Source of the DNA: Maylandia zebra | Lineage: Eukaryota > Chordata > Actinopteri > Cichliformes > Cichlidae | Assembly (NCBI RefSeq): GCF_041146795.1 | Contig: NC_135170.1 | Coordinates: 24,422,033-24,486,032 of the forward strand | Length of the DNA: 64,000 nt | Reading direction: 5' to 3' | Part shown: in pieces, positions 31,790 through 43,379 of the stretch | Layout: every line of letters starts with the position of its first letter | Numbering within the stretch: the stretch's first letter is position 1 | The notes under the pieces: generated by a model | Told to the model about the DNA's origin: nothing | The model's database searches: none | Seen by the model: only the letters and a program-made list of their open reading frames with translations | Program-made: the position numbers and the translations under genes

Positions 31790-31818
31790 CTCTAGTACGG
31801 TGTACATTTTAGGACATC

Positions 31819-32268
31819 GTCAGGTATCGGACAAAAAATTGTCAGGTGTCAGTTGTCAAAAAAAAAATTGTCAGGTGTCAGTTGTCAAAAAAAAAATTGT
31901 CAGGTATCAGAAAAACAATTGTCAGGTGTCAGTTGTGAAAAAAAAAATTGTCAGGTATCAGAAAAAAAATTGTCAGGTGTCAGAAAAAAAGTTGTCAGGT
32001 GTCAGAAAAAAAATTGTCAGGTGTCAGTTGTCAAAAAAAAAAAAGTCAGGTATCAGAAAAAAAATTGTCAGGTGTCAGAAAAAAAGTTGTCAGGTGTCAG
32101 AAAAAAAATTGTCAGGTGTCAGTTGTCCAAAAAAAAAAAAGTCAGGTATCAGAAAAAAAATTGTCAGGTGTCAGAAAAAAAGTTGTCAGGTGTCAGAAAA
32201 AAAGTTGTCAGGTGTCAGACAAAAAAGTTGTCAGGTGTCAGAAAAAAAATTGTCAGGTATCAGAACAC
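31819..32268 (+). repeat. Satellite array, left arm
   Basis: About 19 copies of a TCAGGTGTCAG or TCAGGTATCAG core separated by A-tracts and TTG/GTTG (unit about 20-24 bp, some units carrying an extra GTTGTC). Long frames reading KKLSGVRKKIV and the like arise from the repeat and are not treated as genes. Confidence 0.92.
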
Positions 32269-32424
32269 AAGGTACCAGAGAGAAAATCTTCCTGCAGGTG
32301 GCGCTGTTGTCATGTCCCACCCGAATTGATTTCCAAATACGTCATCAACGTGTGACCGTGGGAGAGCGTAAGGTCATTGACCTCACCGGAGTTTTACCGT
32401 GGTTCAGGCTCCTAACGACACAAG

Positions 32425-32645
32425 GTAAGTTTAACTTTTTCTCCCTTTTGTTCATATTTTTGCCACAGTTGTGTTATATTAAGTTGCAGTTATGTTGTGA
32501 AAGTTACATATCAGAGACGGAAAGCCAGTTTTGTACGAAACCAAATCAGTACTATTTTTGTCTGGCTAATTCATTCTAGCTAGCGACAGTGGTGAAACGT
32601 GATTCAAATTTAAACTGTTCAGTAATTGTTTTGTATACATTTCAG
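32425..32645 (+). other. 5' UTR intron within the arm
   Basis: A donor at CACAAG|GTAAGT (32424/32425) and an acceptor TTTCAG at 32640-32645 define an intron just before the ATG exon. The mirrored intron is present in the right arm. It indicates that the array-proximal part of each arm is the promoter. Confidence 0.6.
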
Positions 32646-32648
32646 CAA

Positions 32649-35600
32649 ATGGACAAGCTGAAAGCTTACGAGCAGCTTAAAAAAGACCTTGAAAATGGTA
32701 ATCCAACACTTTATTAAACTTTTTGGTAATGCTTGCAAGTTAATTTTTTTAACTGCAAAGAACCCTGACAATATCATGCTTTAATTATTTAACATGTATG
32801 GTATTCATATTTACTTCTCTTTATTAATATGCATGTTAACAGATGTATATAGTTATTACTTTATGATATTGTTGGAGTGCCCGATTTAAAAAAATAAATA
32901 AATAAATAAAAATGACAAAAGTTAAATTTCTCACAAAATTAAAAGATTGCAATTTAAAAGTTAGATAGTCATGTAGGATCTGTCTCCTACAGTCAATCTA
33001 TAACTACTTACCCTTTTAAAATTTTATTTGAAGGTGAGATTACCCAAAAAGGCTTTGATAACAACATAAAAAAGCTCCTGACAGCAGAAAAATCAGGTAG
33101 GTTTTGATACTTTTGAACAACATGCAAAACAATCTCCTTTATTTAACATGATATGCTTAGCAGGTTATGATTGAATAACCACTTTATTAATAGATGCAAT
33201 ACATTTTGAAAGCAGATGACTGTGCAGTAGTCTGTGATTGTAGTAGAATTCTATAAACCACATGTTTCACATCAATGCCCTATTTATATTGCAGATGACA
33301 CTACTTCAACACGTGGCAATGAATTTCTCAGTAAGAAAACCACAATTATTTTGCTTCAAGGTCATTTGTAATATAGAACTCGCTGTGGATCAGTTTGATT
33401 AACTTTCAGCTTCATCCATTACAGGTGCAGCAGAGGCCTTTGGTAAAGCCAAGAAACTACTACAGCCTCAAGTAAAGAAAAGGCAGTTTCCACTGAATGA
33501 TAAACGTTTGGACCATGCCAAATCATTATTGAAGGTTAGTTAAAAAGTGAAGCTACCTGTATGACTATCAGCAATATATTAAAAAATAACTTTCTAAATT
33601 TGGCTTATTTTTTAATAAATTTCCCTTTTTTTCCTTGATGCTAGGTCAGACTGGCTCCCATGGAGTGGAAGCCAAGAACTCATAGAAAGTGTGGACGGTA
33701 CCAGAAGTTAATAATGGACGAAGCTCCACCTCGAATCATTCTTCAAGGCCATGAAACCTATGATGATTTAATTACCATAGGCAAAGAACGCTTCTGGCCA
33801 GAGCGTACTGAGGGGAGTGAGTTCACTCTTTGCCATTCTGACGGGACCAGGTGGAGTAAGCAGGAGTTCCACAAAGAATACGGAACTGTTTCTGATATTA
33901 CACATATGTGGAAAAGAACAATATACATCGGGCGACGACAACTGGGTAATAAAGTGTTCAATATTACTATTAACTACTGTCTAGCACTCGAATTTGTATG
34001 GTATGAAATAATTTTACTTTTTGTACAGAGGTCGTGTGTTTGGATGATCAAAGTTCCATCTCAGGTGTGTGCCTGCCCAAACCAAATTGAATATTTTTGA
34101 TGTTATGATTGAACATGGTACACTGGCCATGTTGGGCATTATTCAGATATATTGCAATTAATGTGTTATTTTACAGATGAAGACCCTGTAACTAAAGTGG
34201 GTGGTGATGAAAGTTGCAGTTTAGGTGAATGCCTGGACATCTAACTAAATCATTAAAATTGACTTCTTTTTTGTTTTGCATTACATTTCCAACCTTTACA
34301 CACTTGTTTACTATGCTTGGTCATTGCACAGTTACTGTATATAATATGCATCTTATTCTGCAGATGAACTTCCTGAAACCCTCATAGGACAAAGTGTTGC
34401 AGAACAGGTAAAACCATGGCTTCATCTTGAACAGAACAATTAATTTCTTATCATTGTCATAAATGTGGATATTTTCACAGTGCACCCTGCAAAAAGTATA
34501 TCTTGGCTGAATGTGTTCATAGGATTTCCATGCAGAAACATCCAGCTCAGCTGAATTTGAAACAGGGAGAGTCAGAAAGAAAAGCCAGTCCAAGCAAAGG
34601 AAGGAGGAAAATGTAGGGTCATCTCTAGGTCCAGGTGGAGCAGTGAGCCAAGACATGTTACCACATGCAGTTATTGAGTCAAAAGAAGCTATGGAGGGAG
34701 CTGAAGAGCTATCTGAAGGTGCTGGAAGTAGTGGGCTTTTGATAGATTTTGCACAGTCTTTCAACCCAACTCCAAAATCGCCATCATGTAAGCATTCTTT
34801 CCCATTTAGGGCTAACATCATATCATCAGACAAAATTGTAAATAAAGGTTTTCATTCTTCACTATTTGGTACTCAAGTTCCTGGAGTAAACCTAGATATT
34901 AGTGATCCAGCAGTTAATAGAAGAATGATTAGCAGTAGCTGTATGTTAATGGATGTTACTTTGTGTTTTTTTTTTTTATCCCCAAGTGTATCTTCCACGT
35001 GTTCCATATGTGGAAGAGGCTTTAATTACATACAGTGAGGACAATCTACTGGGAGAAGGAACATTTGGCAAGGTATATAGAGGTTCTTTTCATGGTACTC
35101 CAGCAGCTGTTAAAAGGATCATGTGTGGCCAACAAGGGATGGAGGACAGCGACATTCATCATGAGATAAATGTTTCACTGTAAGAACTTTGACACACTTT
35201 TTTTTTTTCATTGTCAAAATCGATTCTTCCTCAAGCTGTAACATAATATGCCTCTATTTTGTTTTTTTTATTCGGACATGTTTCTGTTTTATTAGGAGAC
35301 TGTCTCACCCCAACATCGTCAGACTCATGGCAGTTGCCCGCACTGAGTCCTGCTTTTTGTTGGCAGCTGAATACATTCATGGCGCAACCCTGCAGCAAGT
35401 GCTTCACACAGACAGCTGCTTGGTGAAGGTACCAATACTCATAACTTTATGTTTAATACATTTAGGTAGATGTTAATTATCTTAATACCCTCATATTAAA
35501 AAAGAACTTTTTATTGCTGGCATTTGTTTAAATATGTACTTGAAACCATCTTTGTGTACAACATATAAAAAGACTGATTCCTTTATTTTTCTCTCATGTT

Positions 35601-37206
35601 TTCAACCATTTAGAATTACCAAAATGATCTTTAATTGTCAAATGCCAGAAAAGTATCAACTTAGTAAAAGAATAATCTTAAATTTTTAATAATAAGCTCC
35701 CTTACTGTTTTGGTAGAATTGCTGTTTTTACTTGGATGAGGTCCAGACATTTTAGGTTTTCTTCTACAATATTCTTACAATATTTTTCAGGAATTTCTGT
35801 CCAGTCCTCCAGACAGGACTGGTGTAACTGAGTCAGATTGGTTGGCCACCTTGCTCACACACACCATTCACCTCTGCTTACAGTTTCGCAAGAGGACTGC
35901 AATCAGGGCTTTTTGATTGTCACCGCCAAACATTGACTTTGTTGGTCTTAGGTCCCATTGTAATTTATTGAAATTGAAATGGCAATTGCATTTGAATACT
36001 AATCCTATTTGAAGTAATACATTTCCAGTGGTAGACATGTTAGATTGTCACACCTGGCTACGCATTGTTTTATTAATATTATATATTGTCTTGATAGCTT
36101 GAAGGGGATGATGCCGGTTTCATATCACTGGACTTATCCATGGCAGTAGAGTACATCCATGCACAGAGAATCATTCACCAGGATATAAAGCCAGCAAATG
36201 TCATGGTAAGCCATACTGTATTTTTCTTTTTCTCCACTTTGTTTTTGAAGATCAAAATAAAAATAGTATATTATTTATTTAACTTTATTCTCTTCAGTCT
36301 ATTAAACACTACATTTGAACAATGAGAAACTTTTCTGGCATATTCATATAAAGGATTTTTTTTTAAAGTAAGAAGCCTTACATTGTTTCTTTAATAGTCC
36401 AATTTTTCTTTAATATGTTGGTTCTTGCACACCTACAAAATTCCCAAACATGTTGTAAGTTTAGGCTTTACAAACTGAAAGTTTCTATTCTTTTATTAGT
36501 CTGTACCACTTGCTTAAGTGGAATGGGGATTAAAAAATGCACAGGACTATAAAACCGGGTTGGATCATTAACCAATCTGTTAATTTTAATGTTTGGTATA
36601 ATAAACAATCTCAGAATAAATCTGCAGTGATTGGGTGATCTGGGTGCTAAAAGCTTTGAGGGTTTTTTTTTTTTTCCCCAATTATGAGCTGTGGTCTTTG
36701 GAATGACATTTTTGATAACATTTGTGAAATTTTAGACAACCTGGTAAGTTCTTATATATACCTTATAGGTTCACCACCCTTCTAAAAAGGCAGTCCTGAC
36801 AGACTGGGGCATGGCAAACATAAGAGACACTGTGATGCTTCGTCAAGGGAGTAAGTTCACTGCCCAGGCTACTGGTCCAGCTGGTGGCACATATCTTTAC
36901 ATGGCCCCTGAATGCATACTGATGTTTGAAGAGGCCTCGTTCCAGACAGACATGTGGTCCCTCGGAGCCACATATCTGGAGATCCTGACGGGTTCCGCTC
37001 CGTGGATGGTTAAAAAACAAAGAGAACTGGCTGCACTAATGGCCACCAAAACCCCACCACATGCCCTATCACATCTCAGTGACAAAAACAGTTTTCTTGG
37101 TGGTTTGGTGAGCTATGACCCAGACTCAAGGCCTTCCGCATCTGATGTTGTTAAGTTTCTCAAGTCAGGCCTTGATCTTACGAGCCGATATGGCTACAAG
37201 TGGTAA
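32649..37206 (+). CDS. Transposon-borne protein kinase, 12 coding exons
   Basis: Exons: 32649-32697, 33034-33096, 33295-33330, 33425-33534, 33645-33945, 34177-34224, 34364-34407, 34523-34787, 34987-35179, 35296-35428, 36098-36205, 36769-37206. All introns have GT-AG ends and the sum is 1788 nt (595 residues plus stop), so the frame holds throughout. The start is MDKLKAYEQ inside the left arm. Residues about 85-185 form an unassigned domain (FWPERTEGSEF, HSDGTRWSKQEF, MWKRTIYIG). A charged linker follows. The kinase domain fills the last 270 residues: glycine loop GEGTFGKVYRG, lysine in AAVKRI, glutamate in HHEIN, catalytic loop HQDIKPANV (HRD replaced by HQD), metal-binding DWG (for DFG), and MAPE. 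All essential D, K and N residues are present, so it is probably active. A polyadenylation signal lies near 37395. Its role in the element is unknown. Confidence 0.85.
35715..36010 (-). mobile_element. Tc1-like transposase relic in a kinase intron
   Basis: The stretch 'ggactggtgtaactgagtcag...ttggccacc' and 'gactttgttggtctta' is the antisense of a well-known Tc1-type transposase region. It is short and decayed, and lies in the 0.67-kb intron between kinase exons 10 and 11. Confidence 0.6.
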
Positions 37207-37429
37207 TGGTGCTACAGTCTGCAGTTCAAAAGTCTTTCAATGTGAATTATGTTCTACATTTTGTTAACAAAAGTTGTGGTAAATGAAACACTGAATCATT
37301 ATGAAAGATGGCACCTTGTCAATTGTATTTCAAAATTTTATTGTACATTTTGTTGGTCAGACAGTTTTCAAATTACCTGTTGATTTTAAACAAGGATAAA
37401 TAAATGTTAACAAACACTGTTGTATGATT

Positions 37430-40400
37430 TTATTGGTCATTGGAAATGTTTACTGGTGCACCTTCCATCCTCTCTCTCTTCAGAAAGATGTATATGTCAT
37501 TTGCCTCGGCAAACGTAGAAGGTGTAGGAACTGCATTTCTGTTCATGGCAGTTGTGAGCTCTTGGACTAGCATGAGGTATGCAGCAAGGCAACCATCAGG
37601 TGTGCAGGGAAACTGGCTGTTTTCTAAAATGTTCTGGCACATGTCTCTGAATTCCTGGTTTGCTACCAGTGAAGGCTCTTCCCTCTCACAGATTAATTGC
37701 TTGGCATAGTCTAAAAGGTCTGGGTCAACAATGTGCAGCACATTGCCATATCCTGCGAATGAAAGACAATATTGAAAAGATGTTCACTTTGAATGTTAAA
37801 AATAAATGAATAATGACAAAGCTGTTCTAGAACCTGTATAAGAAGCAGTCAGTGTTTACAGATGTTATTACAGAAACTTAAAGATGGAAATATCACTCAA
37901 ACATTTAGATAAATTTTTAGTTAAAGGTGTCAATATGAAGCCATTTTAGTATTGACAGTAGAAATTCAGAAATCTCTTATTGTACTACAAGTAGGCTTCT
38001 TCGGAAGACACAAAAGAGAAAGCACATTATAACAGTTTTACGCTCATTACACTGGCTTCCAGTATATTTTAGAAAATTCATTTTAAAATTTTAGTAATGA
38101 CTTTCAATGCTCCGAATCGTGAAGCTCCTGCCTTAATTTCTGATCTTATAGAACCCCACGCTCCCTCTCCCAGCCTGTGATCATCTAATCAATGGCTGTT
38201 AGTAGTCCCACCAGAAGACCAGAGGCAAGAGATTCTCCAAAGCGGTGGCTCCCAGGTCATGGAATGCTCTGCCTCCATCATTACGTTTCCTTGATTGCAT
38301 TTATTCTGTATGTTCGATTGTGCTGTTTTATGTTCATCTGTTTTATATTATTGTGAAGCCACTTTGTGGTTTTTATCCTGTGAAGAGTGCTATATCAAAG
38401 TAAAAGTAAACTAATGAAAGTTAAAAAAACAAAAAAATAAAACCCCACAGGCTTTCAAATGACATACCAGGAGGTGGTGAGGTAAACAGAAGGTCGGGTT
38501 TCCCAAATGGACCAGGTGCATTGCGTTGCTTGCGGATGTCATGGGTGTTCCAAACTGTTTGCTCCGTTTTTAAGTCTCTTTGAAGCAGTGGCAAGTGTGA
38601 GTACTGCAAGCAGTTGCTATGAAAAAGGAGAATTAAAAAATTAATATGTTCATCTGCTTCTTTGAGGTAGAATAAGTAAAAGCTAAATTTTAATCAGTAC
38701 TCAAAAAACAAAGGCATTCCTAGACCACATACTTTCATACTGCTGCTTGATTATTTTTCATGTCTAAAAATATTAACTTACATGTGCACAGGATTGTCCA
38801 GTTCAAGGATCCCAGACTCCATCATGGCCTACGCATGTTGTTTTGAAAAAGACATAAGTTGTGAAGGTGAGAATTTCATTAGTGAAAAGGTACAGATGTA
38901 CATAAACACAGATTCTGGCCTTGTGTTTTCAGATAAACTAATCCATCGTATGTTTAACGAAATTTTGATGGCTAGTCTTTGTTAATAGGTTTTACAGGTG
39001 AAAGATTTGCTTTACCTCAAATGTTGTCAGCCATTTCTTAATCCATGTCCGCTTTAAAATACTGTTGAAACATTCAGCTCTCTAAACAACAGAAACATGA
39101 CATTATCAGTTTTGTTGTCAGGTTGTTACTTTAGAAATAGTCATTTACCAGCTTAAAGACATACCTGGTTGTGCACTGATGTCCCCATTCTGAAGCACCT
39201 CCATGCCTGATTCCCAAGATCTCGCATGTGAAATGCCATCTGCATTTGACCCACAACAAGGTTCTCCTTTCCTCTGTCCCCCCGAATCATTTGAGGACAG
39301 CCTAAAGACACAAACTGAAGATAATTAGTGAATGATGAAAAAATAAATTTATTAACAAAATGTAATCTTTTTTAACCCCCCATTTTTTTAGTATATTGCA
39401 TACCACCCTGTTCTTGAACAGCCTCAAAGAAGTATCTGGCCACAAAGTTTTGTTTGCGGTTGGATGTGCCCACCTTTAGCCATAGAACCTTCCTGGAAAA
39501 TCTGAAAAGAAAGAAACAGAAAAGTGGCCACTTGTACATATGATTTAATCATGTTTTGGCACTATGTTTGGTTTTTGTTACATTCCCCAAGAGTGACAGA
39601 GGATTTTTATGAAATACAATATAATCAAGTGTGCCTTATATTCAAGTGTTCATATATTTTCACATAACCAAGCCTATTGTTGAAGAATCACCTAACCAAG
39701 TCTATTGAAAGGAAAACATGATGCATTCCTTACCTCAGTGTCTGAGATGTTTGACAAACATGATATAATGATGCATTCTTTACTTCAGTGTCTGTGATGT
39801 CAGATAAAGCATGATATACTTCTGTATTCTTACCCCAGTGTGTGAAAGATCAGATAAGCTGATCTAATGCCTAACCTCTCTTCGACTTCTCACAAAAGAG
39901 AAAGTACTATGTAACCTGCTTTTTCCTATAAATAAAGGAAGCAAGCCTGCATTCGGTGTGTGTGTTCCTCAGAGACACTCACCCGTGCGCACGCTCTTAT
40001 ACACTGAGTTTGGTCTGCAGTGTCTTATTTCTCTTGCTTGTGTTTGAACAAATGTCTTCCCCTGACAAAGAGTATGCTGGTTTTCCATTGTATTATGTCT
40101 AGGCGTTGTTTCTGGTTCCTCCGGCCATTTTGACTGCCATAGTTGTGTAGGCTTACATGCCTTTGGAATTGAATGTGACTCTTGACTGTGTTCAGACTGA
40201 CGCGAGGGGAGAGCTGCCTTTTGTTTTGTAATCCCTTGTATTCTCCTGTTTATGTGTTGGTTAGGTAGGTTATCGTAAATTGTACATTTTATTTTCTTTG
40301 GAGTTAAATTCTGTTTACTTTATATCAGGGATGTTTTGTTTGTTGTGTTGGTCTTGGCCCTCCCTGAAATTAACTGCCAGTCTGAAATGGAACTTTAAGA

Positions 40401-41675
40401 CTAGCAGGAAATAAGCCTTTTAAAAACCGCCATCTTGAATACTCCTTCACTATTCATACTTTATCTTGGTCCCTTAGACCAGGCTTGGCCAAATCCAGAC
40501 CTCGAGGGCCAGTGTCCTGCATGTTTTAGATATCACCCTGGGTAAACACACTTGAATAAAATGATTAGTTCATTACCAGGCCTCTGGAGAACTACAAAAC
40601 ATGTTGTGAGGGTAATTTAGCCATTTGAATCAGCTGTGGATCAAGGACACATCTAAAACCTGCAGGACACCGGCCCTCGAGGCCTGGACTTGCCCATCCC
40701 TGCCCTAGACTCCTCAGGAGAGATAACACCTCAGTTTACCGCACATCCTTATCTTGAAGCAACTTTGTACTATCACTGAATATAATAAATTAAGTAGCGA
40801 ATGCCATATTCAAACCTACCCATCAATCCCCAAATGTATCCACATTCCAAAGAACTTCAGTTTATCATTGCCTATATGAAACAACAAATAATAATTACAA
40901 TTTGTTTCAACAGAAGTACCATCAAAACATGTTTGGAAGGTTAATTGAAAAGATAAAATAAATACCATCAATGTGCCATGTGTCATTTGGACCACGGCTG
41001 ATGTAATTCCGACGGGGAATTTTCTTCTTTCCAGGAGATCTCCTCTGAAGAACACTTGCATCCATATACCTCATTATATTAGCAACATCGTCTCTACAGT
41101 AACAATAGATTTTACTATGAGCTCAACAGTAAAACAAGAGAATACTTGATTATATACACACTATTTAACCAACCTGTAACAAGGCCGCACTCCTCTGACA
41201 TCCCTTACCCGCTTTACCATTGCCCTGATTCCTTGTTCAGGAGACCACTGTTTCATCTCACTCTAAAAAACAAACAAACAGACAATTGAATGTTTTTTTT
41301 TTTAATCACTACAGAAAATAACATTTATTGTTTCTACAATAGCTCATGACACAGACTTCAGGAAAATATATATTTTTTGCACTGATGTTTTAACGCTTAC
41401 CTCCACAGCTTTGTGGATTTCAGTAAAAGGTCGTTGGGGGCATCTTCGCTTCAACCCTAGAAGTTTTAAAACTCGTCTCAGATGCCTCTCACTGTTAAAA
41501 GACAACACAGACTTACATTATATTGAATGCAAACTGCATGTTTTGTCATTTTAGAGAGTTGTCACGGAAACTGTTGAAATGCAGACTTACCTTATTTTAT
41601 GCCCATATGAATTCAGTGCACAGCTGATTTCCTTTTGTTTTAAGCCTTTGTTGAACAATGTTATTATCATCATAT
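37430..41675 (-). CDS. Integrase-type DDE transposase, at least 11 exons
   Basis: Exons in transcript order: 41591-41675, 41401-41491, 41174-41262, 40976-41093, 40820-40871, 39404-39501, 39175-39301, 39016-39081, 38782-38828, 38468-38616, 37430-37752. These join in frame over about 415 codons to a stop after VNISNDQ. The N-terminal part is a helix-turn-helix (KQKEISCALNSYG, HLRRVLKLLGLKRR). The rve-type core has its first D in WHIDGNDKLKFFG, its second in RGDRGKEN and its E in HNQRAECFN, with 39 residues between the second D and E. Exons further 5' are uncertain: the right arm supplies an ATGGACAAG start, and a candidate exon lies near 41945-42009. It catalyses excision and integration by inference from family. 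No break is seen in the exons listed. Confidence 0.85.
38000..38412 (+). mobile_element. L2-type LINE fragment in a transposase intron
   Basis: 'ctcattacactggcttccagta...' corresponds to the LHWLPV region of L2 reverse transcriptase C-termini, and the 3' end has 'gaagccactttgtggtttttatcctg...gctatatcaaa'. Decayed, and between transposase exons 10 and 11. Confidence 0.7.
39594..40067 (+). mobile_element. Solo LTR in a transposase intron (fossil)
   Basis: TGACAG...CCTGACA with a 5-bp target duplication AAGAG (39589-39593, 40068-40072). It contains a TATAAATAAAGG promoter/polyadenylation region near 39930 and a short internal tandem repeat. It resembles an endogenous-retrovirus LTR; no internal genes. 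Confidence 0.75.
40480..40702. mobile_element. Palindromic hAT-type MITE in a transposase intron
   Basis: 223 bp with long inverted halves (GGCCTCGAGG... and AAAACCTGCAGGACACC motifs) and 8-bp flanks CCTTAGAC / CCCTAGAC (40472-40479, 40703-40710). This is a common fish MITE. It lies in the large intron between transposase exons 5 and 6. Confidence 0.8.
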
Positions 41676-42111
41676 CTTGAAAGGTTAAGTGTAACAACAA
41701 CAGTCTAATTGATCACCCACCTCTTACACTGAACATAAGTAATTAACCAGTAAAGTACTAAATCTTTTTATGTGGCAATTACACTAAAAGCATCGTCAAT
41801 TCAGTGCCCACAAATAAAACGTGTAGCAAAAAATACACTTCTTTGATATTAAATAGGTGAGCAGTAGTTAATAAATAAGTTGTACTTTAGTCATTTATTT
41901 TTAATGCTCTTTTTTTAATAAAAAAAAAAGTATTTTTGGTACAGTCATGGGAACCAGCCAGAGTCGGATACTCCTTTCATCATCGTCAGATGACATATTG
42001 CAGCAAAGTCTAAAAACAATAACAGAAAAAAAAAATCGGGATCAAAAAATATCCCGACAGTAGCAATATAGAAAAGAGAAATAAAGAAAAAGAGCGACAG
42101 AAAGGATGCAG

Positions 42112-43145
42112 GCTGCTCGTAAGCTTTCACCTTGTCCATTTGCTGAAATGTATACAAAACAATTACTGAACAGTTTAAATTTGAATCACGTTTCACCACT
42201 GTCGCTAGCTAGAATGAATTAGCCAGACAAAAATAGTACTGATTTGGTTTCGTACAAAACTGGCTTTCCGTCTCTGATATGTAACTTTCACAACATAACT
42301 GCAACTTAATATAACACAACTGTGGCAAAAATATGAACAAAAGGGAGAAAAAGTTAAACTTACCTTGTGTCGTTAGGAGCCTGAACCACGGTAAAACTCC
42401 GGTGAGGTCAATGACCTTACGCTCTCCCACGGTCACACGTTGATGACGTATTTGGAAATCAATTCGGGTGGGACATGACAACAGCGCCACCTGCAGGAAG
42501 ATTTTCTCTCTGGTACCTTGTGTTCTGATACCTGACAATTTTTTTTCTGACACCTGACAACTTTTTTGTCTGACACCTGACAACTTTTTTTCTGACACCT
42601 GACAACTTTTTTTCTGACACCTGACAATTTTTTTTCTGATACCTGACTTTTTTTTTTTTGACAACTGACACCTGACAATTTTTTGTCTGACACCTGACAA
42701 CTTTTTTGTCTGACACCTGACAACTTTTTTTCTGACACCTGACAACTTTTTTTCTGACACCTGACAATTTTTTTTCTGATACCTGACTTTTTTTTTTTTG
42801 ACAACTGACACCTGACAATTTTTTGTCTGACACCTGACAACTTTTTTTCTGACACCTGACAACTTTTTTTCTGACACCTGACAATTTTTTTTCTGATACC
42901 TGACTTTTTTTTTTTTGGACAACTGACACCTGACAATTTTTTTTCTGACACCTGACAACTTTTTTTCTGACACCTGACAATTTTTTTTCTGATACCTGAC
43001 TTTTTTTTTTGACAACTGACACCTGACAATTTTTTTTCTGACACCTGACAATTTTTTTTCTGATACCTGACAACTTTTTTTTTGACAACTGACACCTGAC
43101 AATTTTTTGTCTGATACCTGACGATGTCCTAAAATGTACACCGTA
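42112..43145 (-). repeat. Right inverted arm of the transposon
   Basis: About 1,030 bp. The unique part (42112-42518) is the complement of 32271-32677, with one difference noticed (GACAAGG versus GACAAGC) over about 400 bp. The arm is longer than the left because its satellite array has more units. It supplies the promoter and first exon of the transposase. Confidence 0.9.
42530..43122 (-). repeat. Satellite array, right arm
   Basis: About 26 copies of the same TCAGGTGTCAG unit as the left arm, in inverted orientation. Unit variants (GTATC, and GTTGTC inserts) recur with a higher-order period of about four to five units. Confidence 0.9.
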
Positions 43146-43379
43146 CTCTAGTCAGATCTTAGAATTGGTGATTAATTTTTGTTTAATTCTGTCTTATTAT
43201 TAAATGTAATTTAGAGCATGTTAAATGCATGTTAAAATAATAATATGATATATTGGGTCATGATTGAAAAAAAGATGGTGTGCACAGCTGAAGCTCTTCT
43301 ACTCCGTTTTATATTTAACGAGAAAAAATAAAAATATTACTTGATGACTACGGCTGTGAAAACTGACTAGTTAAAACAG

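Follow-up and report, generated by a model that had tools for sequence, protein, structure and literature searches.

A stretch of 64,000 nucleotides of the Maylandia zebra genome (contig NC_135170.1 of assembly GCF_041146795.1, positions 24,422,033 to 24,486,032 of the forward strand), referred to here as the window, contains at its positions 31796-43145 a cut-and-paste transposon of 11,350 bp with the hallmarks of the IS3EU superfamily. The element is a young, autonomous transposon in which two convergent, intron-rich genes, one for a protein kinase and one for an integrase-type transposase, each start from one of two near-identical arms and fill the space between them. Judging from sequence comparison, the kinase is a maintained component of the transposon and not a one-off capture, since six full-length copies keep both genes open and kinase/transposase pairs are found in other fishes.

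The element runs from TACGGTGTACATTTTAGGACATCG to the reverse complement of TACGGTGTACATTTTAGGACATCG, so that its ends read TACGG..CCGTA, and the perfect 6-bp target duplication CTCTAG on both sides, which an earlier note on this DNA had pointed out, is confirmed. With up to three mismatches allowed, the 24-bp end has two matches in the 64 kb, both exact, while shuffled sequences lead one to expect 0.00. The same note had described the inverted ends as identical; this holds for the 24-bp ends but not for the arms, the left one being about 881 bp long and the right one 1,034 bp. The outer part of each arm is an array of 22/29-bp repeats, in which TGTCAGGT[AG]TCAG occurs in 16 exact copies on the left and in 21 on the right, and the inner 549 nt (32128-32676 / 42112-42660) differ between the arms by one base. 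The outer repeats are putative transposase binding sites. Within each arm, an untranslated exon ends at its donor and is followed by an intron and by the acceptor and ATG of the next exon. The first kinase exon had been placed inside the terminal arm by the earlier note. The donor of the untranslated exon and the kinase start codon do lie there, but the opposite arm has the same sequence; therefore, the arm position of the kinase start is evidence of a shared start region and not of function. At codon 4 of the right arm, the window copy has one base that occurs in none of the other five full-length copies. Between the stop codons of the two genes there are 223 bp (37207-37429).

A genome search with the arm gave 183 matches, not all of them listed, from which 15 places besides the window were retrieved, and 16 copies were counted. 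A 32-bp end (two mismatches or fewer) is present at both termini in 15 of the 16 copies and at one terminus, in the stretch examined, in the copy C23. Perfect 6-bp duplications flank 11 of the 15 copies with both ends; those of C24 agree in five of six letters, and those of C22, C16, and C17b are mismatched. Six copies are full-length, at 11.2-11.4 kb: C4 (the window), C11, C13, C20, C21, and C22. All six have the complete set of 13 kinase exons and 12 transposase exons with both frames open, and five have perfect duplications. Since the 11.2-11.4 kb structure is found at five other places in the genome, four of them with perfect 6-bp duplications of their own, it is not a product of chance. 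The five other full-length copies differ from the window copy by 6-14 mismatches and 10-20 gap columns over 9,413 interior columns. Because the full-length copies are near-identical and 11 of 15 duplications are perfect, the element has spread very recently. Older copies at C14:40.68 Mb (94.7% identical) and C44:0.11 Mb (94.3%) show the same left end followed by kinase exons in unchanged order, and therefore the kinase was present before the recent burst; within the stretch read, no transposase was seen after the kinase in these two copies.

Shorter copies of 7.2-7.6 kb without the kinase occur as well (C16, C17a, C17b, C21b, and C24). They keep the 12 transposase exons, but their kinase gene is reduced to exons 12-13 and the start encoded in the arm. 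The transposase frame is broken in four of these five: C21b and C24 have an 11-base deletion in the last exon that shifts the frame, C24 also being without the exon 11 donor, C17a has a frameshift in exon 3, and C17b has a stop at codon 43; in C16, the frame is open. All five carry the substitution W136R near the first catalytic D, a position occupied by W in 109 and by R in none of the 120 transposase relatives listed from a search that found 784. Overall, the five short copies look like dependants of intact copies. A further copy, C14a (9.4 kb), has lost kinase exons 2-9 and part of exon 10, and an additional stretch of about 1.6 kb lies at its exon 3 donor. The C3 copy, as far as it was read, resembles the short type, and no transposase exon was found in C13b, C14b, C7, and C23.

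A separate observation concerns kinase exon 11, a fragment of which (about residues 383-424, with no stop) is found at eleven places outside the longer copies (C14:25750526, C8:23078135, C1:30091102, C7:55429248, C15:14523808, C3:16165650, and five others). One of these sites, C14b, is a non-autonomous copy bearing the ends of the element.

The earlier note had also proposed a DDE integrase-type transposase convergent with the kinase, and the exon model agrees: a protein of 429 aa encoded by 12 exons matches Pfam rva_4 at 5.5e-33 (Table 1). The proposed triad, assigned by motif, is D139, D198, and E238, kept in 117, 116, and 114 of the 120 listed relatives, respectively. An intronless database protein of the same length (P0006, 429 aa) is 97% identical to the transposase with identical exon joins. 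Since its longest contig is 1,976 bp, as against 4.6 kb for the genomic gene, P0006 suggests a spliced transcript of a near relative. At residue 111, V is found in the window copy only, with G in the other five full-length copies and in 109 of the 120 listed relatives; with a private residue at such a conserved site, the window copy may be impaired.

For the kinase, the 595 codons in 12 exons counted in the earlier note are replaced by 607 codons in 13 coding exons, separated by 12 GT..AG introns; the annotated Haplochromis burtoni protein P0001 is also 607 aa long and 99.5% identical to the window kinase. A Pfam scan at E 0.001 gave only Pkinase (6.1e-44, residues 333-591) and PK_Tyr_Ser-Thr (5e-32), and thus no alpha-kinase of the kind carried by the IS3EU elements of rust fungi. 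Upstream of the kinase domain lie a short N-terminal tag and a family-specific domain, and Pfam and PDB searches with the latter returned no relative. The ATP-site lysine, the catalytic-loop residues, and the DxG residues are all present in the window kinase. In an alignment of 37 rows, K360 is found in 32 (4 gaps), H453, D455, and K457 in 34, N460 in 36, and D474 in 33, departures at these positions being mostly gaps, and DWG replaces DFG in 30. By its conserved catalytic residues, the kinase is active-looking. From an older copy (C44old), counts for the ratio of nonsynonymous to synonymous rates (dN/dS) were discarded: with 12 gapped codons, 2 stops, and 95/748 against 32/203 changes, above those of the introns (117/1,270), they were taken as misalignment or decay.

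Table 1. Positions in the window of the transposon, its genes, and their parts
Feature	Position	Strand	Basis or remark
Left target site duplication, CTCTAG	31790..31795	.	sequence
Left arm (terminal inverted repeat), starts TACGG	31796..32676	+	outer 22/29-bp repeat array, 16 exact; inner part common with right arm
GT donor of untranslated first exon in left arm	32425..32426	+	sequence
Protein kinase gene, 607 codons + stop, 13 coding exons	32649..37206	+	exon model; Pfam Pkinase; P0001
Kinase exons 1-7	32649-32697, 33034-33096, 33295-33330, 33425-33534, 33645-33945, 34029-34064, 34177-34224	+	
Kinase exons 8-13	34364-34407, 34523-34787, 34987-35179, 35296-35428, 36098-36205, 36769-37206	+	
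N-terminal tag MDKLKAYEQLKKDLENGEITQKGFDNNIKKLL (exons 1-2)	32649..33096	+	first 9 codons inside arm
Family-specific N-terminal domain, about residues 87-186	33425..33945	+	no Pfam or PDB match
Kinase domain, residues 333-591, motifs AVK, HQDIKPAN, DWG	34987..37206	+	motifs, Pfam
Transposase gene, 429 codons + stop, 12 coding exons	37430..41996	-	exon model; Pfam rva_4; P0006
Transposase exons 1-6	41996-41972, 41675-41591, 41491-41401, 41262-41174, 41093-40966, 40871-40820	-	
Transposase exons 7-12	39501-39404, 39301-39165, 39081-39016, 38828-38782, 38616-38468, 37752-37430	-	
About 474 bp in window copy, missing from six compared shorter transposase-bearing copies (insertion or deletion)	39589..40068	.	
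Right arm, ends CCGTA	42112..43145	-	21 exact array repeats; untranslated exon and start codon as in left arm
GT donor of untranslated exon in right arm	42363-42362	-	sequence
Right target site duplication, CTCTAG	43146..43151	.	sequence

IS3EU elements have been defined by TA..TA ends, target duplications of usually 6 bp, and an integrase-like DDE transposase (PMC10045372), and the window element has all three. The assignment to IS3EU, which the earlier note had suggested, is thus supported as far as it is testable, by the ends, the 6-bp duplications, and the rva_4 transposase. The word kinase, however, does not occur in the text of PMC10045372. In the rust fungi and truffle, TET-bearing IS3EU elements carry a transposase and an alpha-kinase in opposite orientations (PMC12730594). 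These elements resemble the window element in their TAYGG..CCRTA ends (stated for the rust families), their 6-bp duplications, and a kinase opposite the transposase. They differ from it in the type of kinase, an alpha-kinase, and in a TET dioxygenase gene placed between the two genes; the kinase of the window element is a conventional Pkinase that has a tag and a family-specific domain, and no more than the short gap separates the two stop codons. The Styx element of Zymoseptoria (PMC10853768) likewise joins an IS3EU-related transposase to additional genes, but these are reported to comprise one gene with DUF3577 and a pair showing GATA and CCHC motifs, and the one passage that mentions kinases refers to host genes copied nearby. 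IS3EU itself and a kinase within fungal IS3EU are already in print. Among the papers listed by full-text searches of an open-access library, none was found to describe a vertebrate IS3EU element with a conventional protein kinase or with a HECT-type gene; Repbase entries may already list such proteins.

Many distant rva_4 genes, 30-39% identical to the window transposase, are present in the same genome, and two sister elements among them, F1 (C4:16.93 Mb; C4:16923500-16934000) and F2 (C4:26.03 Mb; C4:26031103-26041534), with transposases about 33% identical to that of the window, were read. Like the window element, both have an rva_4 transposase and a convergent second gene; unlike it, the second gene is of HECT type, with a GGGTR/LFFP domain followed by a HECT-type end that scores 34.2 bits in F1 and 21.7 bits in F2 against the curated Pfam cut-off of 23.9. 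F2 is complete, with 10,432 bp, TACGG..CCGTA ends, and CAGTCG duplications, and its arms match at 98.4% identity over at least 2,224 bp. As in the window element, the arm covers the start of the second gene: its first 39 codons lie in the arm and are also present, in a different frame, in the transposase-side arm. No kinase match was found in the F1 and F2 stretches searched, and the kinase as a universal part of IS3EU was rejected on account of F2. Among 63 distant rva_4 loci (those of 104 rows of the transposase search with 30-39% identity, rows of the own family being left out), 30 have a HECT-type gene within 12 kb, convergent in all 30, against about 0.08 by chance. They amount to 29 distinct second genes, two transposase places sharing one. 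For this comparison, 54 of the 91 rows of the HECT search were typed, one place appearing twice as two pieces, and further pieces of the same genes, nine tag-only matches in transposase-side arms, and one separate place on C9 were left out. Both genome searches score best candidates only, and the counts are therefore lower bounds.

Homology between the N-terminal domain of the kinase and the GGGTR/LFFP domain was not established, the hhalign probability being 7.6%, as against 0.61% for the best among 20 shuffles. In a metagenome protein, P0173, a GGGTR module and a similar tag are joined to a protein kinase (kinase match 2.5e-46), and the protein aligns to the second gene of F2 at 35% over 221 aa (2.7e-28); the GGGTR module thus occurs with either enzyme. 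In the Maylandia zebra genome, the GGGTR part of P0173 matches at HECT-type genes or unassigned places, and its kinase part matches other kinases only, at about 30%.

A profile search brought up kinase relatives in frogs as well as in many species of ray-finned fishes. Relatives of both proteins lie on contigs of equal size, read as the same contig, in seven of the twelve other vertebrates in which both are listed with contig data: Paramormyrops (77,107,170), Notolabrus (39,177,102 and 42,375,795), Melanotaenia (40,591,798), Coilia (39,226,258), Triplophysa tibetana (31,606,119), Esox (34,844,506), and Merluccius (206,484). The Coilia pair has adjacent locus tags (ACEWY4_010459/010460). Together with the six open full-length copies, these pairs bear out the view of the earlier note that the kinase is not accidental cargo. 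Pairwise identities of kinases and transposases are correlated (nine pairs; Mantel r 0.72, a value reached by 38 of 20,000 permutations), the short Merluccius transposase giving lower identities. In the kinase tree, from which Coilia P0158 is missing as it has no motif of the kind used for cutting, the closest neighbour of the cichlid kinase is the one from the mormyrid Paramormyrops (support 96/94), with 87% identity between the two, as against 57% for Melanotaenia. In the transposase tree, cichlid and Paramormyrops sequences fall into an unresolved fork. Set beside the relationships of these fishes, the kinase tree suggests horizontal transfer; joint transfer of both genes is suggested at most, the transposase tree being silent on this point.

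A side observation among these relatives concerns herring-like fishes, in which a GIMAP-type GTPase domain (PF04548) is fused to a transposon-type kinase domain (P0160, P0161, P0163, P0164, P0169, and P0179). Five of the six fusions were included in the tree, where they are nested within the transposon-type kinases with moderate support; host genes may therefore have taken over the transposon kinase.

The N-terminal tag of the kinase is also found on some transposases. In Melanotaenia, the transposase P0009 and the kinase P0128 have a common N-terminal stretch, including MEKIKRYEELRRELDNGEITQKGFDARVKTLLSS, and diverge after SSAQRE. A profile made from six kinase tags, themselves among the 185 proteins searched, matches five of the 120 listed transposases, namely P0009 (75.6 bits), Esox P0025 (31.3), Rhinophrynus P0017 and P0018 (about 24), and Bufo P0021 (19.5), the next transposase scoring -1.1. 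Melanotaenia is thus the only species in which both proteins were seen to bear the identical tag, a related tag occurring in the wider group. Against Pfam, the best scores were those of the Alosa tag, with 23.0 bits for DUF1707 (SHOCT-like; cut-off 27.6) and 14.7 for SHOCT (cut-off 27.0), and the window tag gave 13.3 for DUF1707. Since these scores are under the curated cut-offs, the tag as a proven SHOCT domain was rejected; in PMC3581485, oligomerisation by SHOCT was unsupported by the authors' own experiment.

It appears probable, though by no means assured, that the product of the second gene is an enzyme that modifies proteins and works in trans, either on the transposition complex or on some factor of the host, and thereby aids transposition. 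The suggestion of the earlier note that the kinase regulates transposition is plausible. The kinase would be made together with the transposase, from the opposite arm, and would phosphorylate either the transposase complex or a host factor encountered at it, such as one of silencing or repair, which would allow transposition to succeed. The N-terminal tag, which is also present on transposases of some relatives, may bring the two proteins together. Because sister elements have a HECT-type gene in the place of the kinase, the second gene may be read as a slot for protein-modifying enzymes and not for a kinase per se. The strongest argument for this is that a kinase, a HECT-type gene, and, according to PMC12730594, a fungal alpha-kinase occupy the same place, which suggests that modification, and not one enzyme, is kept. 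A bolder extension, for which the chances are somewhat below even, is that IS3EU-type elements are two-component machines made of a transposase and a modular accessory protein, the latter consisting of a tag that the terminal repeat encodes in part, an adaptor domain, and a protein-modifying enzyme that can be exchanged (a protein kinase, a HECT-type ubiquitin ligase, or, in fungi, an alpha-kinase). As the transposases of some lineages (Melanotaenia, pike, toads, and frogs) have a tag of this kind, exchange between arms could keep both proteins alike-tagged and allow the enzyme to be directed to the transposition complex, and modification of the transposase or a host factor would be a required licensing step.

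Several results weigh against an aid to transposition by the kinase. The earlier note had named related elements with the same arms and transposase, but regularly without the kinase, as evidence against its own view, and these were found in part: the full kinase is missing from six of the 12 transposase-bearing copies. Five of these carry W136R; in the sixth, C14a, the transposase is open and without W136R, which counts against a strict need for the kinase. Since C14a is open without a full kinase, the kinase is not needed in cis, and a need for it at all is not strictly proven. The dN/dS counts from the older copy C14old (differences per sites, 19/748 nonsynonymous and 10/203 synonymous) are uninformative. 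At the sensitivity used, no HECT-type neighbour was found at 33 of the 63 distant rva_4 loci. Both window arms encode the first nine codons of the tag, and the transposase-side copy is out of frame with the transposase; therefore, pairing through the tag cannot work in the window element as drawn. Finally, the listed pairs are on different contigs in five of the 12 vertebrates (Alosa sapidissima, Oreochromis niloticus, Sarotherodon, Triplophysa rosa, and Xenopus laevis), which is weak evidence because one contig is listed per protein cluster.

Other explanations of the kinase fare less well. It might serve the survival of the element in its host, by disturbing silencing or helping to tolerate breaks, and not act on the transposase, as has been proposed for the fungal TET genes. 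The unlike enzymes found in the same place, which besides the kinase and the HECT-type genes include the fungal alpha-kinase with TET (PMC12730594), would suit several ways onto host proteins; however, the tag common to the Melanotaenia transposase and kinase, and present on pike and toad/frog transposases, points to a link between the proteins of the element itself, and we consider host survival as the sole role rather unlikely. That the kinase is a hitchhiking passenger, kept only because full-length copies are copied whole, agrees with the existence of a kinase-less form at at least five places, with perfect duplications at two and five of six letters at a third, and with a sister element, F2, that does without it. 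Nevertheless, kinase and transposase co-occur in fishes in which the kinase shares 45-87% identity with that of the window element and retains the catalytic-loop residues, all six young full-length copies are open, and the five short copies have altered or broken transposases, as dependants would, which makes a mere passenger improbable. Relatives named MAP3K-like, MARK-A-like, and the like in databases could suggest a host kinase gene within a composite of repeats, or a misassembly joining a host gene to a transposon. This was dropped as practically refuted by the copies: six at different places share the same ends, five with perfect duplications of their own, and the non-family matches among the best candidates listed in the genome search are two kinases at 30-31% identity.

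The usual picture of a cut-and-paste transposon is that of a transposase and a pair of ends. It appears that a whole class of them keeps a gene for a signalling enzyme in a fixed place, the type of enzyme varying between families, with a kinase, a HECT-type ligase, and, in fungi, an alpha-kinase. If that enzyme is needed for jumping, transposition would be controlled by a post-translational modification that the element itself supplies. With six young, open copies in Maylandia zebra, a working two-protein transposition system could be tried, and the GIMAP-kinase fusions of herring-like fishes may represent a host takeover of the transposon kinase.

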